Source: Agrococcus sp. Marseille-Q4369
GTDB lineage: Bacteria; Actinomycetota; Actinomycetes; Actinomycetales; Microbacteriaceae
Direction of reading: 5' to 3'
Assembly: GCF_018308945.1 (NCBI RefSeq)
Contig: NZ_CP070501.1
Location: forward strand, 1,054,001-1,118,000
Length of the DNA stretch: 64,000 bases
Shown here: piece after piece, positions 1 through 8,974 of the stretch
Numbering within the stretch: position 1 is the stretch's first letter
Layout: each line of letters opens with the position of its first letter
Notes under the pieces: generated by a model
The model's database searches: none
Told to the model about the DNA's origin: nothing
The model's input: the letters and a program-made list of their open reading frames with translations, nothing else
Made by a program: the position numbers and the translations under genes

Positions 1-754
1 GTCGCGGCTTCGCCCGCCGCGCCGTGTCGGGCCGCGGTTTCGGGCCGGTCAGTTGCTTGCCTGAAGCGGCCTCCTTCCGCTCCCGCTCCGCGACCCGCGA
101 CTCGTAGTCGCGCGCCTTCTCCCGCTCCAGCTCGTCCAGCGCGGCCCGAATCCGCTCGCGCCGGTCCCGGCCGCCGGACCATGCCGCGGGCAGCTCGTCG
201 CCGCGGCGATCGCCGAACAGGGCGTCCTCGGCCGCGTCGGTCTGCTCCGCCTCGTCGAGGATCTCGGCGGCGAGATCCTCGCGCGAGCGGTTCGCGAAGA
301 ACGACGCGTCCGCGGCGATCTTCGTCCCGTCGATCGCGATCATCCCCGCATCGACGATCCCCGCCTTCACGCAGAGCCCGAGCACCTGCCCGAACAGCGC
401 CGCGATCGCCTCCTGGTGCCGGGATCGGAACCGCGCCAGCGTCGCGTGATCCGGCGTCTGGTTCACCGCCAGCACGCGGTAGGCGACGTCCTCGACCAGC
501 TTCCGCTCGATGCGCCGAGAGGAGCGCTCGCCGGTGCAATAGGCGTAGAGCAACACGCCCAGCATCAGCGCCGGATCGTAGACCGCGCCGCCGCGACCAT
601 CGGCCGGGTACGACGCGTAGAACGCTGTGAGATCGAGCTCCGCGACCGTGTCCAGCACGAAGAACGCGAGGTGGTCTTCAGGGAGCCAATCCCGCACCGA
701 CGGCGGCATCAGGAACAGCTGATCGAGATCCCCAGAGCGCACGTTCACGGCCAT
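1..754 (-). CDS. IS1182-family transposase, C-terminus cut by window edge
   Basis: DDE transposase of an IS1182-like insertion sequence. The first 251 codons are present; the rest lies left of position 1. The N-terminus (MAVNVRSGDLDQLFLMPPSV) is the conserved N-terminal domain of these enzymes. Near residue 143 'AIDGTKIAADAS' carries the first catalytic Asp, followed by the usual Arg/Glu/Lys-rich helical stretch. The start is the ATG at 754-752. The inverted repeat of this end should lie a little above 754, but it cannot be confirmed without the other end. Codon use matches the chromosome, so nothing dates the insertion. Confidence 0.85.
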   Translation of the reverse strand, partial: MAVNVRSGDLDQLFLMPPSVRDWLPEDHLAFFVLDTVAELDLTAFYASYPADGRGGAVYDPALMLGVLLYAYCTGERSSRRIERKLVEDVAYRVLAVNQTPDHATLARFRSRHQEAIAALFGQVLGLCVKAGIVDAGMIAIDGTKIAADASFFANRSREDLAAEILDEAEQTDAAEDALFGDRRGDELPAAWSGGRDRRERIRAALDELEREKARDYESRVAERERKEAASGKQLTGPKPRPDTARRAKPR

Positions 755-1229
755 GACCCATTCTCCCGCGACCCCTCCGCAGACCCACGCAGGCACGCCA
801 TTCATGCGACAGCCTCTCGTCTGCAGCTACCACCACCACGAGATCCACGCCGGCCGACTGCGAGTCGAGCGAGCAGGACCGCGGCCCGGCCAATGGCGCA
901 TCGTGCCCGAGCTCCAGCCCGCCCGCACCCGCACCGCGGCCCTTTCGTTCGCCGGCCTCTCGTTCGCGGGCCTGCAGACACCGCCCGAGCAGCCGCGAAG
1001 CCTCGAAGCAGCCGCACCGGCACCGCTCGCGGTGAAGCTGCCCGAGCTCCCCGAGCCCGGCGGCGAGCCGGCGGTCGAGCCATCCGCCCGACCACCTCGG
1101 CGCCGTCGACGCCCGCCCATGCTGACCGAGCGCCGCCTCCGCGCGCTGCTCGAGCGGCACGGTCGTGCTCGGGAGCATCGAGCACGCGCCGACGTCTTGC
1201 CGAGACCGGGGCTCGTGCTCCGCCGCTGA
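753..1229 (+). CDS. Hypothetical Pro/Arg-rich protein
   Basis: Open frame of 158 codons whose start overlaps, on the opposite strand, the transposase start; a second ATG is at 804. From about codon 18 onward third positions are mostly G/C, as in real genes here, which argues for coding. The product is rich in Pro, Arg and Ala, with no signal peptide, membrane segment or motif I recognise. It fills the gap between the insertion sequence and the hydrolase end at 1238. It could also be a chance frame or a remnant interrupted by the insertion sequence. Confidence 0.3.
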   Translation: MTHSPATPPQTHAGTPFMRQPLVCSYHHHEIHAGRLRVERAGPRPGQWRIVPELQPARTRTAALSFAGLSFAGLQTPPEQPRSLEAAAPAPLAVKLPELPEPGGEPAVEPSARPPRRRRRPPMLTERRLRALLERHGRAREHRARADVLPRPGLVLRR

Positions 1230-2971: not shown

Positions 2972-3742
2972 TCAGTCTTCTCGCACCGTGCGGCGCTCGA
3001 TGCGCTTCTCGATGTCGGTGCCGACCTCGATGATCCGGTGCACGAACACGCCCGGCAGGTGCACCGCATCCGGGTCGATCTCGCCCGGCTCGACGAGCTC
3101 CTCCACCTGCGCGATGCAGATGCGCCCCGCCATCGCCGCGGGCGGCGAGAACTGGCGGGCGGCCTTGTTGAAGACGAGGTTGCCGTGCCGGTCGCCGCGC
3201 AGCGCGTGCACGAGCGAGAAGTCGGTCGTGATGGCCTCCTCGAGCACGAACTCCCGCGGCTCGCCGTCGACGTCGAACGTCGCGGTGGGCTTGGGGGCGG
3301 ATGCCTTGGCGACCGTGCCGTCGGCGTTGTACAGCTGCGGGAGCCCGCCCTCCTGCACCTGCGTGCCGACGCCCGTGCGCGTGTAGAACGCGGCGATGCC
3401 GGAGCCGCCGGCGCGGAGCTTCTCGGCGAGCGTGCCTTGCGGCGTGAGCTCGAGCTCGAGCTCGCCCGTGAGGTAGCGGCGCTCGAACTCCTTGTTCTCG
3501 CCGACGTAGGACGAGGTCATCTTGTCGATCTGGCCGCCGCGCAGCAGCAGGCCGAGCCCCCAGTCGTCGACGCCGCAGTTGTTCGAGACCACCCCCAGGT
3601 GCTTGACGCCCCGCTCCTCGAGCGCGCGGATGAGCGCCATCGGGTTGCCGGAGAGGCCGAAGCCGCCGACCGCGAGGGTCGCTCCGTCCTGGATGTCGGC
3701 GACAGCCTCCGCCGCCGAGCCGTAGGTCTTGTCGATCGCCAT
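2972..3742 (-). CDS. scoA: 3-oxoacid CoA-transferase subunit A
   Basis: Alpha subunit of the same CoA-transferase, 256 residues. The N-terminal CoA-binding stretch 'GGFGLSGNP' (residues 26-34) and the length match the family. The ATG at 3742-3740 shares one base with the stop of the upstream hydrolase gene (TGATG), so translation is coupled. With subunit B and the SDR upstream it gives the route 3-hydroxybutyrate to acetoacetate to acetoacetyl-CoA; a thiolase is not in this window. The pcaI/pcaJ alternative (3-oxoadipate) cannot be excluded by sequence reading alone. Confidence 0.9.
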
Positions 3743-4686
3743 CAGCGTGCCCCTTCCGTGCGGGATCCCTGCCCCGCTGCCTGCAGGCGCGCGACGACGG
3801 CCGCGACCGCGTCGACGCCCGAGCCCATCAGGATCGTGTAGTGATTGGTGTCCTCGACGTCGTCGACCTCGAGTCCGGGCAGCCGCGACCGCCACGTCGC
3901 GAGCCACTCGTCATCGTAGAGGCCCGGCGATTCGTCGAACAGGCCGCGCGGGCTCCGCAGCAGCGCGATCGGCGCCTCGAGGGCCTCGAGGGCCTCGGTG
4001 TAGCCGCCGCGGCCGTCGAGCTCGACGAGGTTCGCGACGACCGCGTCGGGGTTCGCCGAGGGCCGCAGCGCGAAGCCCTCCGACTCCTCCCGCTCGTCGG
4101 GCACGAGGTCGTAGTCGACGTACTCCTCGATCGCCGGGCTCCAGTAGGGCCCGAAGGCCGGGTGCTGCCGCCAGAAGTCGCGGTAGGCGGCTGTGTCGGG
4201 GAACGTCATCCGCAGCCGCTCGATCGCCGGTCCGAGCACGTCCTCAGGGCTCAGGTCCGAGCCCTCGGGGGCTGGGCGCAGCGGCAGGCCGCCGTCGACG
4301 AGCACGAGCGACGCGACGAGCTCGGGATGGGCGCTCGCGAGCCGGGTCGCGACGTGGGCGCCCATCGAGTGGCCGACGATGATCGCTCGCGCGAAGCCTG
4401 CCGCGCGCATCGCCGCGGCGACGTCCTCGGCGTGCTGCACCATGCCGAACGGCGCGGGCAGCGCGCGCGAGCCGCCGCGGCCGCGCAGGTCGACGGCGAG
4501 CACGGGCGCGCCCAGGCGCTCGGCGAGCGGCGAGAACGAGCGGTGGTTGGCCGTGATCCCGTGGATGGCGACGACGGGCGTGCCCGGCGCATCCGCCCGC
4601 CACACGGTCGCGGCGAGCTCGCCGCCGTCGACGGCGACGCGCAGCGGCTGCTCCGCCGAGGCGGGTGCATCGGTCGCGGTCGTCAC
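3742..4686 (-). CDS. Alpha/beta-fold hydrolase
   Basis: A second alpha/beta hydrolase, 314 residues, not a close copy of the one at 1238. HG is at residues 42-43, the nucleophile is Ser107 in 'VGHSMGAH', and the likely catalytic His282 is in 'EDTNHYTIL'. The GTG start at 4686 overlaps the SDR stop by 4 bases. Its place between the dehydrogenase and the CoA-transferase suggests hydrolysis of a hydroxybutyrate ester or oligomer feeding the dehydrogenase; this is inferred from position only. Confidence 0.85.
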   Translation of the reverse strand: MTTATDAPASAEQPLRVAVDGGELAATVWRADAPGTPVVAIHGITANHRSFSPLAERLGAPVLAVDLRGRGGSRALPAPFGMVQHAEDVAAAMRAAGFARAIIVGHSMGAHVATRLASAHPELVASLVLVDGGLPLRPAPEGSDLSPEDVLGPAIERLRMTFPDTAAYRDFWRQHPAFGPYWSPAIEEYVDYDLVPDEREESEGFALRPSANPDAVVANLVELDGRGGYTEALEALEAPIALLRSPRGLFDESPGLYDDEWLATWRSRLPGLEVDDVEDTNHYTILMGSGVDAVAAVVARLQAAGQGSRTEGAR

Positions 4687-5429
4687 CGGGCGCTCCAGCC
4701 GCCATCCATGACGTACGAGGTGCCCGTGACCATGCCCGCGTGCGGGCCGGCGAGCCAGGTCGCGAGCGACGCGACCTCCTCGGGCTCGACGAGGCGCTTC
4801 ACGGCGGCCTCGGTGAGCATGACCTTCTCGAGCACGTCGGCCTCGGGGATGCCGTGCGTCTTCGCCTGGTCGGCGATCTGCGCCTCGACGAGCGCGGTGC
4901 GCACGTAGCCGGGGTTGATGCAGTTCGAGGTGACGCCGTGCGGGGCGCCCTCGAGCGCCGTGACCTTCGAGAGCCCCTCGAGCCCGTGCTTCGCGGCGAC
5001 GTAGGCCGACTTGAAGGCGGATGCGCGCAGGCCGTGCACGCTCGAGAGGTTGAGGATGCGGCCGAAGCCGCGCTCGTACATCCCCGGGAGCGCCGCGCGG
5101 ATGAGCAGGAACGGCGCCTCGAGCATGAGGGTGTGGATGCGCCGCCACATCTCGGGCTCGTAGCTCTCGATCGGGGCGACGCGCTGGATGCCCGCGTTGT
5201 TCACGAGGATGTCGGCCTCGAGCGAGAGCGACTCGAGCGAGGCGACGGCGAGGAGGTCGACCTCCCACGACTCGCCGCCGAGCTCGGTCGCGAGCGACTC
5301 GGCGGCGGCGGCGTCGCGGTCGGCGATCACCACGTGCGCGCCCTCCGCGGCGAACGAGCGGGCGATCGCGGCGCCGATGCCCGCGGCGCCGCCCGTGATG
5401 ACGGCCCTGCGGCCGGAGAGCGTGCTCAT
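4683..5429 (-). CDS. 3-hydroxybutyrate dehydrogenase-like SDR
   Basis: NAD(P)-dependent short-chain dehydrogenase, 248 residues. Cofactor motif 'TGGAAGIG' is at 12-19, 'NNAG' at 77-80, a catalytic Ser near 130 in 'NLSSVHG', and Tyr143/Lys147 in 'YVAAK'. The C-terminus 'MDGGWSAR' and the pairing with a CoA-transferase point to D-3-hydroxybutyrate dehydrogenase, oxidising 3-hydroxybutyrate to acetoacetate. The ATG at 5429 overlaps the TetR stop by 4 bases. The exact substrate is inferred. Confidence 0.85.
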   Translation of the reverse strand: MSTLSGRRAVITGGAAGIGAAIARSFAAEGAHVVIADRDAAAAESLATELGGESWEVDLLAVASLESLSLEADILVNNAGIQRVAPIESYEPEMWRRIHTLMLEAPFLLIRAALPGMYERGFGRILNLSSVHGLRASAFKSAYVAAKHGLEGLSKVTALEGAPHGVTSNCINPGYVRTALVEAQIADQAKTHGIPEADVLEKVMLTEAAVKRLVEPEEVASLATWLAGPHAGMVTGTSYVMDGGWSAR

Positions 5430-6091
5430 GAGTCCTCCTGGGTTGGAGCCGCGGTGGCGGCAGCGGTCAACTGCGACGGGGCGGTGCCGAGCGCGCGCTG
5501 CACGAACGCCACCATCTCGTCGAACACATCGTCGGGCACGGGTGTCGCGCCGGTGCCGTACGCGCCGTCGTCCCCCGTCGGCCACAGCACGTAGCGCATC
5601 CCGATCATCTCGCCGACGCCCATGAGCGCCCACGCGGCGACCTCGGGGTCGACGTCGCCGATCTCGCCGGCGGCGCGGGCGCGCTCGAGGCCCTCTCGGT
5701 AGCCCTCGACGATGCGCTCGTAGTGCGCGCGCATCGCGCCGGGCGAGACGAACTCGGCCTCGCGCACGACGCGGTAGAGCGCGGGGTGCTCGGCGGTGAA
5801 GGCGAAGAACTCGCGGAAGCCCTCGCGCTCGGCCTCGGCGCGGTTCGAGCCGCGCGCCGCGCCGTCGCTCATCGCCTTCCGCACGCGCCGGTTGAGGTCG
5901 TCGACGAGCTGCTCGAAGAGGTCGAGCTTCGACTCGAAGTAGAGGTAGAACGTGCCTTGCGCGACGCTCGCGCGCTCGGTGATGCGCGCGATCGAGGCGG
6001 CCTGGTAGCCCTGCTCGGCGAAGACGCCCTCGGCGGCCGCGAGCAGCTTCGCCTTCGTCTGCTCGCCGCGCTTCGTCCGCGGCTGGTTCAT
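5426..6091 (-). CDS. TetR/AcrR-family transcriptional regulator
   Basis: 221-residue repressor-type protein. The N-terminal helix-turn-helix (about residues 10-55) reads 'LLAAAEGVFAEQGYQAASIARITERA' in part, followed by 'GTFYLYFESK', the TetR signature. The C-terminal helical domain would bind the inducer, plausibly an acyl-CoA or hydroxyacid. It is cotranscribed with the genes it presumably controls, overlapping its neighbours by 4 bases on each side. Its operator is not visible in the window; the operon's original promoter may have been lost in the rearrangement seen just upstream. Confidence 0.9.
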   Translation of the reverse strand: MNQPRTKRGEQTKAKLLAAAEGVFAEQGYQAASIARITERASVAQGTFYLYFESKLDLFEQLVDDLNRRVRKAMSDGAARGSNRAEAEREGFREFFAFTAEHPALYRVVREAEFVSPGAMRAHYERIVEGYREGLERARAAGEIGDVDPEVAAWALMGVGEMIGMRYVLWPTGDDGAYGTGATPVPDDVFDEMVAFVQRALGTAPSQLTAAATAAPTQEDS

Positions 6092-7128
6092 GACACCGCT
6101 CCTTGCTGCTCGAGCGACGCGGCGAGCGCGCGGCGGAGCGGCTTGCCCGTGCTCGTGCGCGGGATGCCGTCGACGACCACGAAGCGCTTGGGGTGCTTGA
6201 AGTCGGCGATGCGGCCGTCGAGGTGCCCGCGCAGGTCCTCCTCGGTCGCCACCCCCTCGAGCACGAGCCACGCGACGACCTCCTCGCCCCAGCGCTCGCT
6301 CGGCACGCCCGCGACGGCCGCCTCGGCGACCGCGGGGTGCTCGAGCAGCGCGAGCTCGACCTCGATGGGCGCGATCGACTCGGCGCCCGAGCGCACGATG
6401 TCCTTCATCCGGTCGACGACGCGGATGCGGCCGGCCGCGTCGCGTTCGACGAGGTCGCCCGTGCGCAGCCACGACCCGCACCGCGCCTCGGCGGTCGCCT
6501 CGGGGTCGCGGAAGTAGCCCTGGAAGACGGCGGGCCCGCGCACGAGCAGCTCGCCGCGCCCCGGCGCCGACTGCACGCGGCCGTCGACGAGCAAGGCGAC
6601 GTCGACGTGCGGGTAGGGGCGGCCGGCGGTGCCGTCGTCGCCCTCGTCGCGCGCGAGCGAAACGTTCGGCGCCGCCTCGGTGAGCCCGTAGCCCTGCCGC
6701 ACGGGCACGCCGTGGCTGCGCAGCAGCTCGGTCGCGCGCGGGTCGAGCATGCCGCCGCCGACGATCGCGGCCTTGAGGCTCGAGAGGTCGCACGCGAGGA
6801 AGTCGGGGTGCTGGACGAGCGCGCGGTAGGTCGTCGGCACGCCCATGGTCGCGGTCACGCGGTGCCGCTCGTCGGCCTCGAGCACCTCGCCGGCGATCCC
6901 GAGCTCGCCCGCGGCGTCGACCCACACCCAGCGGAACGAGCCGCCGGTGCGCATGTCCATCTCGCACACGGGGAACACGGGGAACTCGGTCTCGGGGTCG
7001 GGGCCGAGCAGCCACGAGCGCACGATCTCGGGCTCGGTGTAGGCCCGCCAGACCTCGGCGGCCGGGGCGCGGAAGTCGCGCTCGTAGGCGATGGAGGTGT
7101 CGTCGGGCATGGTGAATCGGGTCTTCAT
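6088..7128 (-). pseudogene. Fusion of SRPBCC N-terminus to acyl-CoA synthetase C-terminus
   Basis: One open frame of 346 codons made of two unrelated halves. Residues 1 to about 90 are the start of an SRPBCC (AHSA1-like) protein (MKTRFTMPDD; 'FRAPAAEVWRAYTEPE'; 'MDMRTGGSFRWVW'). From about 94 on it is the C-terminal half of an AMP-forming acyl-CoA synthetase: 'GVPTTYRAL', 'GYGLTEAAP', 'GDLVERDAAGR', 'PRTSTGKPLRR'. The join is near 6846-6867. The synthetase lacks its ATP-binding P-loop (SSGTTGxPK-type) region and the SRPBCC part lacks its C-terminal half, so neither activity is expected. An AAGGAG ribosome site precedes the ATG, 2 bases after arsR. The likely cause is a large in-frame deletion; an assembly join is the alternative. 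Confidence 0.8.
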
Positions 7129-7130
7129 GG

Positions 7131-7487
7131 TCACTCCTTGTCGCTTCCCGACTGGAGGTGCGACTCGAGGCGGTCGCGTCGGGCATCGACCTGGACCTCG
7201 AACTGCGAGACGAAGACGGCAGCGCGGATGAGCGGCGCGAGCTCGATGATGCGGGGGATGCGCTGCGCGTCGCGCTCGGCTCGGACGAGGCCGGCCTCCT
7301 CGAGCACCTTGCAGTGCTTCGAGACGGCCGGCTGGCTGAGCCCGGCGAGCGCGGTGAGCTCGGTGACGGTCGCGGGCCCCGACCGCAGCCGCAGCAGGAT
7401 GCGGCGGCGAGTGCGGTCGGAGAGCGCTGCGAAGATGCGGTCGAGCTGCTCGTCGTCGAGCCGCTGCTCTCGCATTTCCATCACCAC
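7131..7487 (-). CDS. ArsR-family winged-helix repressor
   Basis: 118-residue helix-turn-helix protein of the ArsR type that usually sits before an SRPBCC gene: 'LDRIFAALSDRTRRRILLRL', then 'GLSQPAVSKHCKVLEEAGLV' as recognition helix and wing. No metal-binding Cys cluster is seen. ATG codons occur at 7487, 7481 and 7475; the first lies about 15 bases from the predicted transcript start. It probably represses its own promoter. After the rearrangement downstream, that promoter also reads into the TetR/SDR/CoA-transferase genes. Confidence 0.88.
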   Translation of the reverse strand: MVMEMREQRLDDEQLDRIFAALSDRTRRRILLRLRSGPATVTELTALAGLSQPAVSKHCKVLEEAGLVRAERDAQRIPRIIELAPLIRAAVFVSQFEVQVDARRDRLESHLQSGSDKE

Positions 7488-7508
7488 CCAGTTCTATAAC
7501 CACCTAGC

Positions 7509-7537
7509 AATGTACGACTGCGCGACCGACACGTCAA
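7509..7537 (-). promoter_or_regulatory. Sigma-70 type promoter for arsR and the downstream operon
   Basis: Reading leftward, TTGACG (7537-7532) and TACATT (7514-7509) are separated by exactly 17 bases, a good housekeeping promoter. The transcript would start near 7502, 15 bases before the first arsR ATG. It is the only obvious promoter for the eight tightly packed genes down to 1238. Confidence 0.6.
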
Positions 7538-7549
7538 GAGGCGGATGCG

Positions 7550-8710
7550 TCACTCGCTCGGCGTCGTCGCGGGGCGTTCGCGCTCCCCCGCGGCTCGCGT
7601 CGCCGCGGCGCCGACGAGCCGCTCGAGCGGTCCGCGACTGCGCGTCACCGCGAGGATCGCGCCGATCGCGATCGCGATGCCGAGCTGCGCCGCCCACGCG
7701 CCCCAGCCGAGCGAGAGCTCCGGCTCGGCGAGCGCGAGCGTCGAGAGCAGCACGACGTGCACGACGTAGATCGTGAGGGGCGCGGCGCCGGCGGCGCGGA
7801 GCGGCTCGAGCACGCGGAGCGCGGCAGCCGGGAGGGATGTCGCGAGCAGGCCGAGGAGCGCGATCGCGACGAGCCCGATGCCGACGGTGCGTGCCATGTC
7901 GGCGGGGGTGCCGGTGTGGGGCGCGGCGACGAGCTGCCAGGCGGGCTCGGCGCCTTGCGCGGCACCGTAGCCGTTCATGAGGATCGAGTCGCGCACCGCC
8001 GCGACCGGCAGCTCGAGCACCGTCTCGGCGACGAGCCGCAGGCCGAGCTCGCTCGCCGCGACGCCGGCCGCGATGAGCGCCGCGCCGATCGCACCGATCG
8101 CGGCGAGCGCCCGCCGCTCGCGGCCCCGCGCGCGGGCGGCGAGCAGCGCGCGGGCGAGGAGCATGCCGATCAGCAGGTACGCGAGCCAGGTCACGACCGG
8201 GTAGACGCCCGTGAGCACGACGTCGACCGCGGCGGCGAGCAACGCGTCGCCGGGCCCCTCGGGCTCGACGAGCTCAGCGGGCAGGCTCTCGCGGGCGATC
8301 GCCGCGAGCGAGCCGCCCGCCGCCCACAGCGCCGCCGCGAGCGCGGCGATCGCCCACGACGGCAGCGTCAGCAGCAGCCCGGCGAGCGCGATGGAGACGC
8401 CGAAGGGCACGAGCACGACGAAGACCGCGGTCGCGAGCGGCGCCACGAGGACGCCGAGCACGGCGACGACCGCGCCGCGCGCGAGCGTCGAGCGGATCGC
8501 GCCCCGCCGATCCCCCGCCGCGAGCCGCTGCCGCGCGGCGAGCACGACGCTCACACCGCCCAGCACGGCGAACAGCGTCGACGGCGGTCCGTCGACGAGT
8601 GCGACGACGCCCGGCGCCGGCTCTTCCCAGAGGACGGTGTGCGCCGCCATCATCCCCGCGACGGCCGCGAGCCGCGCGAGGTCGATGCCCACGAGTCGCG
8701 TGCCGGCCAC
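7550..8710 (-). CDS. Multi-pass membrane protein, DUF1624/DUF418-like acyltransferase family
   Basis: About 386 residues with roughly ten hydrophobic segments. The N-terminus 'RLVGIDLARLAAVAGMMAAH' and C-terminal 'PLTIYVVHVVLL' resemble the membrane proteins annotated as heparan-alpha-glucosaminide N-acetyltransferase-like or DUF418. Such proteins are thought to acylate cell-envelope or exported molecules, but the substrate is unknown. The start is uncertain: GTG at 8710 is used here, and an in-frame GTG at 8728 lies 8 bases after a TAGCTC box. The gene is upstream of arsR on the same strand but is separated from it by that gene's own promoter. Confidence 0.75.
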   Translation of the reverse strand: MAGTRLVGIDLARLAAVAGMMAAHTVLWEEPAPGVVALVDGPPSTLFAVLGGVSVVLAARQRLAAGDRRGAIRSTLARGAVVAVLGVLVAPLATAVFVVLVPFGVSIALAGLLLTLPSWAIAALAAALWAAGGSLAAIARESLPAELVEPEGPGDALLAAAVDVVLTGVYPVVTWLAYLLIGMLLARALLAARARGRERRALAAIGAIGAALIAAGVAASELGLRLVAETVLELPVAAVRDSILMNGYGAAQGAEPAWQLVAAPHTGTPADMARTVGIGLVAIALLGLLATSLPAAALRVLEPLRAAGAAPLTIYVVHVVLLSTLALAEPELSLGWGAWAAQLGIAIAIGAILAVTRSRGPLERLVGAAATRAAGERERPATTPSE

Positions 8711-8744
8711 GGCACCATCGTGCCGCACGCGCGGTGGAGCTAGG

Positions 8745-8770
8745 GGCGGAGACCCTTTCGGGTCTCCGCC
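8745..8770. terminator. Perfect 11-bp hairpin, terminator-like
   Basis: GGCGGAGACCC and its complement flank a TTTC loop. It lies between glpX (ending leftward at 8995) and the membrane protein gene starting at 8710. It has no T-run, as is common for actinobacterial terminators. Confidence 0.5.
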
Positions 8771-8849
8771 GCGACCCCAGCGCCGACGCCCGTCTCGGGC
8801 GTCGGACGGCGACTCACGCATTCGCGACTCAGGCTGCTCTCGTGCCACG

Positions 8850-8974
8850 ACCGGACCCGTTCGCGCGGACTCGACCCGCTCTCGGCGACCCGACCGCTTC
8901 CGGCAGCGAGTCGACCCGTTCTCGCCCACTCGACCCGCTGCAACGGCTCTACTCGGCGAGAAGCGGTCGAGTCG
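8850..8974. repeat. Degenerate GACCCG(C/T)T repeats in intergenic DNA
   Basis: Between 8711 and 8994 there is no convincing gene. Copies of (T/G)CGACCCG(C/T)T, some degenerate, recur at about 20-base spacing (near 8853, 8872, 8887, 8912 and 8930). An inverted near-copy (GAGAAGCGGTCGAGTC) is at 8959-8974. The function is unknown. Confidence 0.45.

Follow-up and report, generated by a model that had tools for sequence, protein, structure and literature searches.

The locus analyzed here lies within a stretch of 64,000 nucleotides (the window; G000:C1:1054001-1118000) of the genome of Agrococcus sp. Marseille-Q4369, which is assembled as a single contig of 2,737,735 bases (2.74 Mb), with an estimated completeness of 100% and a contamination of 0.04%. 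All the genes considered are on the minus strand. The arsR gene (7131-7487, start codon uncertain; Pfam HTH_5, 6.7e-14) is followed, two bases past its stop codon, by the start of a single open frame of 346 codons (7128-6088), with zero stops or frameshifts, the stop codon of which overlaps the start codon of the next gene in an ATGA (6088-6091). The next gene is an uninterrupted tetR (5426-6091; Pfam TetR_N, 3.8e-15), and behind it stand genes for 3-hydroxybutyrate dehydrogenase (bdhA, 4683-5429; NCBIfam TIGR01963, 310.9 bits, cut-off 307.05), an alpha/beta hydrolase (3742-4686, with the GTG at 4686 taken as the start; Pfam Abhydrolase_1, 9.5e-23), both subunits of 3-oxoacid CoA-transferase (subunit A, 2972-3742, TIGR02429, 231.5 bits, cut-off 128.5; subunit B, 2305-2934, TIGR02428, 331.8 bits, cut-off 243.55), and a second alpha/beta hydrolase (1238-2308, with the GTG at 2308 taken as the start; Abhydrolase_1, 1.9e-20). 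The gene contexts given in a preliminary description of the locus, namely, ArsR before the SRPBCC part and TetR, SDR and CoA-transferase after the synthetase part, are confirmed, with a hydrolase gene between those for SDR and CoA-transferase. For comparison, we used 60 relatives, 23 of which belong to the same genus (24 genus genomes counting the source) and include named Agrococcus; the closest two among the compared genomes, hereafter the sisters, are those of A. pavilionensis RW1 (genome G022, locus L079) and A. lahaulensis DSM 17612 (genome G015, locus L080). The tetR product is 97% identical to its counterparts in the sisters, and the overlap between the synthetase gene and tetR is identical in both.

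The ORF between arsR and tetR is the unusual element of this array. Pfam profiles place AHSA1 at residues 20-96, AMP-binding at 81-206 and AMP-binding_C at 256-329, which bears out the earlier claim of an in-frame fusion between an SRPBCC protein and an acyl-CoA synthetase at 6088-7128, each half lacking what its family needs. The N-terminal 86 codons (6871-7128) are a remnant of an SRPBCC/AHSA1 gene (7.5e-12) that reaches only from position 1 to 67 of the 125-position profile, whereas the C-terminal 259 codons (6091-6867) derive from a synthetase that has lost most of its N-terminal adenylation domain, including the P-loop part (AMP-binding positions 247-384 of 384 only). The C-terminal domain of the synthetase is complete (AMP-binding_C, 1-76 of 76) and contains GKPLRR, presumably its lysine motif. 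The SGTTSAPK of the relatives' synthetase, which we take to be the P-loop, falls within the segment that is missing here. Given that each half aligns with a separate intact gene in both sisters, at 86-88% protein identity for the SRPBCC part and 91-92% for the synthetase part, the fusion is not a product of chance.

The window aligns with both sister loci up to ~6867-6872 and the alignment resumes at about the same point, the sisters carrying 5.9 kb more in between. In both of them, the arsR-side SRPBCC gene and the synthetase gene are separate and intact, lying on the same strand 5.9 kb apart. This is the comparison with the closest genomes that the preliminary description had recommended, and it supports the simplest reading offered there, one large deletion that kept the frame. 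From the alignment coordinates, the deleted length relative to L079 is 5,892 bp (about 5.89 kb), and the join connects codon ~86 of the SRPBCC gene with codon ~245 of the synthetase gene. Of the join originally placed near 6846-6867, the upper end fits; ungapped comparison of both edges with L079 and L080 puts the exact join at 6867-6871, within codons 86-88 of the fused ORF, where the window reads GAC GAG CGG. In L079, CGAGC is present at both deletion edges, amounting to up to 5 bp of microhomology, and microhomology of at least 5 bp occurs at 1.6% of random breakpoint pairs in this locus. L080 lacks CGAGC on the SRPBCC side, so that the ancestral state of the microhomology is uncertain.

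In L079, the missing segment comprises the C-terminal half of the SRPBCC gene, the livK-G-F-H-M genes for an ABC importer (a branched-chain-type substrate-binding protein, two ATPases and two permeases), and the N-terminal half of the 503-codon synthetase, including the P-loop. By sequence, the solved structures closest to the intact L079 synthetase are 8weu/8wev (fatty-acyl-CoA synthase and feruloyl-CoA synthetase, from Amycolatopsis). No transposase or integrase family was reported for the proteins scanned in the missing segment, which holds the five ABC-importer genes instead. An IS-mediated deletion is not needed, nothing IS-like having been seen among the genes adjoining the join; a transposase-like ORF is ~6 kb away. 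This ORF (2-805, minus strand; Pfam DUF772, 1.7e-15) lies downstream of the operon and runs past the start of the window, and the alignment between the window and L079 ends near it, at 1259. The comparisons with the two sisters support a single frame-keeping deletion of 5.9 kb, which accounts for the locus, the split state being considered ancestral by simple parsimony. Because random deletions keep the frame in one of three cases, the open frame alone proves no selection.

A replacement copy of the lost segment elsewhere in the source genome was sought by DNA, livK and livM searches, and was not found. The DNA search with the deleted L079 segment gave a best match of 138 bp at 77% among the 40 of 967 first-look candidates that were scored. 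For livK, nothing matched at E<=1e-10, and the sole livM-like match was a 32% paralogue that is present in the sisters too. Orthologues of livK and livM (at least 76% identity) are encoded in 18 of the 24 genus genomes, equivalent to 18 of the 23 others, as the source genome is outside the 18. The restriction of the fusion to one genome might suggest an assembly error that dropped 5.9 kb, the alternative named in the preliminary description, but the edges have at most 5 bp in common, and the missing sequence is not found in a one-contig genome of 100% estimated completeness. Furthermore, the ORF bears marks that a recent artefact would not yield, namely, an in-frame 9-bp tandem duplication in the SRPBCC half (6967-6984; FPV FPV), which is missing from 11 other aligned SRPBCC sequences, and the relaxed selection described below, in which it is unlike its pooled neighbors. 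An error of this kind is, in our estimate, very improbable.

Among the matches listed for the 60 relatives, none joins both halves, and only the source genome is matched over residues 1-346. Each listed match spans either roughly the N-terminal 95 residues or some portion beginning no earlier than residue ~75, except for a distant match in G052 (residues 41-333, 33% identity), which lies inside a 607-codon frame. A conserved two-domain protein, intact across many species, which the preliminary description had named as the finding that would speak against a deletion, is rejected on these grounds. The importer-synthetase cassette is also absent from the same locus elsewhere, without a fusion: Marseille-P2731 (G007) has kept arsR, a full-length SRPBCC gene and tetR-bdhA-scoAB, and lacks both the importer and the synthetase. 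Three further genomes (G009, G021 and G023) carry tetR-bdhA-scoAB without importer or synthetase. In the Marseille-P2731 locus (L093), the position of the importer-synthetase cassette is occupied by two genes (5868-8927), one for an ABC exporter and the other, on the opposite strand, for an unassigned protein.

What, then, is the fused protein? Because the P-loop (ATP-binding) half of the synthetase and the second half of the SRPBCC fold have been lost, the protein should be devoid of enzyme activity, and we caution against annotating it as a working synthetase. To follow its evolution, codons were assigned to the source branch when the source differs and the sisters agree, and to the sisters when one sister alone differs; gapped codons and those different in all three were excluded. 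The ratio of nonsynonymous to synonymous codons in the fused ORF is 13:12 on the source branch versus 9:39 on the sisters (Fisher p=0.006). For the synthetase part alone, the ratios are 11:11 and 6:28 (p=0.017), and for the SRPBCC part alone 2:1 and 3:11 (p=0.19), respectively, whereas six flanking genes pooled yield 22:49 versus 30:83 (p=0.61). Directly compared with these flanks, the fusion gives p=0.09 within the source branch and p=0.32 on the sisters. The Nei-Gojobori omega of the fused ORF is 0.365 (bootstrap 0.166-0.897) on the source branch versus 0.101 (0.039-0.186) on the sisters, the two ranges having a slight overlap, and that of the flanks is 0.169 and 0.145, respectively. Given the amino-acid changes that the fused ORF has gathered on the source lineage, it is better read as a remnant in decay than as a new enzyme, and a coding sequence that slowly decays under relaxed selection is part of the overall explanation that, as a whole, we consider quite probable.

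Alternatively, the ORF could encode a new functional chimeric protein that is kept for its own activity. The 346-codon frame has remained open, with no stop, after some divergence, and the C-terminal domain of the synthetase is complete, both of which speak for such a protein. However, the P-loop half is gone and nonsynonymous changes are relatively numerous on the source branch, although rapid adaptive change would look alike. The AlphaFold model of the fused protein is poor (mean pLDDT 50.7, with residues 1-105 below 50), which is weak evidence against a functional chimera, given that the underlying alignment (A2) consisted of 15 synthetase parts and one stray 20-residue L026 fragment, with 0 SRPBCC relatives; another alignment (A1) was set aside because, judged from its summary, SRPBCC fragments seemed to be aligned to the synthetase half. 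Among the 50 Foldseek matches listed for this low-pLDDT model, there are adenylate-forming enzymes only, at TM scores of 0.29-0.36 to the query, and they are given no weight here. On balance, we regard a functional chimera as very unlikely and the decaying remnant as the better reading.

The deletion removed more than coding sequence: it took the conserved promoter-like site of the operon and a palindrome. In an alignment of 14 relatives, the region preceding livK contains, in most of them, a promoter-like TTGACA-N17-CATGCT and, after it, the palindrome AACCTGA-N8-TCAGGTT; L097 deviates both in the promoter part and in one palindrome arm. The strict palindrome core, ACCTGA-N8-TCAGGT, is found in 19 of the 24 genus genomes. 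When the pattern is widened to ACMTGA-N8-TCAKGT, as was done after variants in L097 and L093 appeared, this number rises to 22 of 24, the exceptions being the source genome, with 0 exact copies, and G013, which alone among the 24 has no bdhA match at E<=1e-60. The palindrome stands before the operon in 22/22 other genomes that have bdhA. In 18 loci it precedes livK or, in those that lack livK, tetR, and in G003, G010, G019 and G020 it adjoins livK, as placed by coordinates. We infer that the palindrome is probably the operator of the operon's TetR. L093 retains a variant form of it, ACATGA-N8-TCATGT, ahead of tetR. A further conserved block, TCACGATCCGGTCACG in L079 (6280-6460 and counterparts), directly precedes the livK promoter-like site in the majority of the 14 relatives aligned, and may be the site of another regulator.

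When up to 2 mismatches from the strict core are allowed, the source genome yields 12 sites, each of them with 2, whereas the reversed control yields 4. One of these 12 sites (C1:352323-352342) corresponds to a second palindrome, which precedes the same symporter gene in the six relatives examined (L098-L103); the two positions changed in the source genome are identical across all six, and the sequence preceding the palindrome is shorter in the source. The gene behind it probably encodes a metabolite/H+ symporter (TIGR00883, with a score of 384.5 bits that falls short of the 443.45 cut-off). The changed second palindrome and the relaxed selection in the fused ORF, although both amount to few changes, suggest that the deletion is not of very recent date. 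This weighs against the possibility that it arose while the sequenced strain was being cultured in the laboratory and is absent from the wild species, an idea that draws on the representation of the species by one genome and on reports of large deletions in culture of E. coli (PMC12803068), and that we consider rather improbable. An older deletion in the lineage is the preferred reading. A point against the regulatory reading is that the tetR gene itself is not visibly relaxed on the source branch (2N:9S), although the presumed TetR sites are gone or changed.

Which promoter, then, would drive the shortened operon? Consensus reading over 11 arsR upstream regions identifies the arsR site, TTGACG-N17-TACATT in the window (7509-7537), as the nearest promoter-like site recognized for the operon. 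TTGAC and TA[CG]ATT are present in all 11 regions, including that of the window, with a spacing, counted from the sixth base, of 17 bases in 10 of the 11 and of 18 bases in one. Between this site and the arsR start (7491-7501 in the window), GTTATA is common to 11/11 upstream regions and GTTATAGAAC to 10/11, and this region is perhaps part of an ArsR operator. Transcription of the remaining operon probably begins at the arsR promoter and runs on across the fused ORF. The spacing between arsR and the fusion, the kept arsR promoter-like site and the ATGA overlap with tetR together lead us to propose that the fused ORF serves as a translated bridge.

Thus, the scenario that we favor, with good though not full confidence, runs as follows. 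A deletion of ~5.89 kb in the source Agrococcus lineage linked SRPBCC codon ~86 in frame to synthetase codon ~245, so that the stumps of the two genes became one ORF, and removed, in the same event, livK-G-F-H-M, the promoter-like site of the operon and the palindrome, its putative TetR operator. The tetR-bdhA-hydrolase-scoAB-hydrolase operon would have been switched from its own promoter to that of arsR. The fused ORF would then be, most likely, a decaying bridge that is still translated, ribosomes starting at the old SRPBCC start and ending in the ATGA that starts tetR. One could go further and view the fusion as kept as a regulatory device, such that the 3-hydroxybutyrate/ketone-body operon gave up a TetR-controlled promoter and came under one controlled by ArsR. 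The ORF would be retained since its in-frame translation sustains that of tetR and of the downstream genes, and the TetR regulon would be dissolving as a consequence, as the two changed positions in the palindrome before the symporter gene would indicate. We regard this extension as doubtful.

The proposed promoter switch recalls the classical lac-pur and lac-trp fusions of E. coli, in which deletions put an operon under another promoter. Those fusions were selected in the laboratory, whereas the present case comes from a genome sequence, and expression from the arsR promoter is a prediction.

The fused ORF itself is of a kind already described. In a 2026 bioRxiv preprint, Kaul, Rossine, Brinda and Baym named "deletion-born fusions", reporting 44 candidates across five type strains, which mostly showed signatures of positive selection and lacked a clear new function (PMC12803068). 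The case at hand belongs to this kind: pieces of two genes that lay far apart have been brought into one frame by a deletion, with loss of the catalytic parts and a rise in nonsynonymous change, and both parts of the ORF exceed the 80% identity check (gap-excluded identity) applied there against the split genes (PMC12803068). Parallel deletion without fusion is described there too, similar to the absence of the cassette without fusion at the present locus in other genomes, and local promoter capture is mentioned (PMC12803068). Unlike those fusions, however, the present one involved the loss of a conserved promoter-like site and a probable operator of the shortened operon, and the fused ORF still overlaps the gene for the operon's regulator, a combination that we did not see in the parts of the preprint consulted (PMC12803068). 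The comparison here is between species, with one genome each. What appears to be new relative to the described kind is that palindrome and promoter were lost in the same event, with the regulator-gene overlap kept.

The Agrococcus locus thus offers a clean case, with intact sister genomes, of a deletion that made a chimeric ORF and probably rewired an operon in one step. It opens the questions of whether ORFs of this sort merely ride along or are retained because they carry reading on into the following gene, and how fast the other sites of a repressor decay after its main operator is lost.
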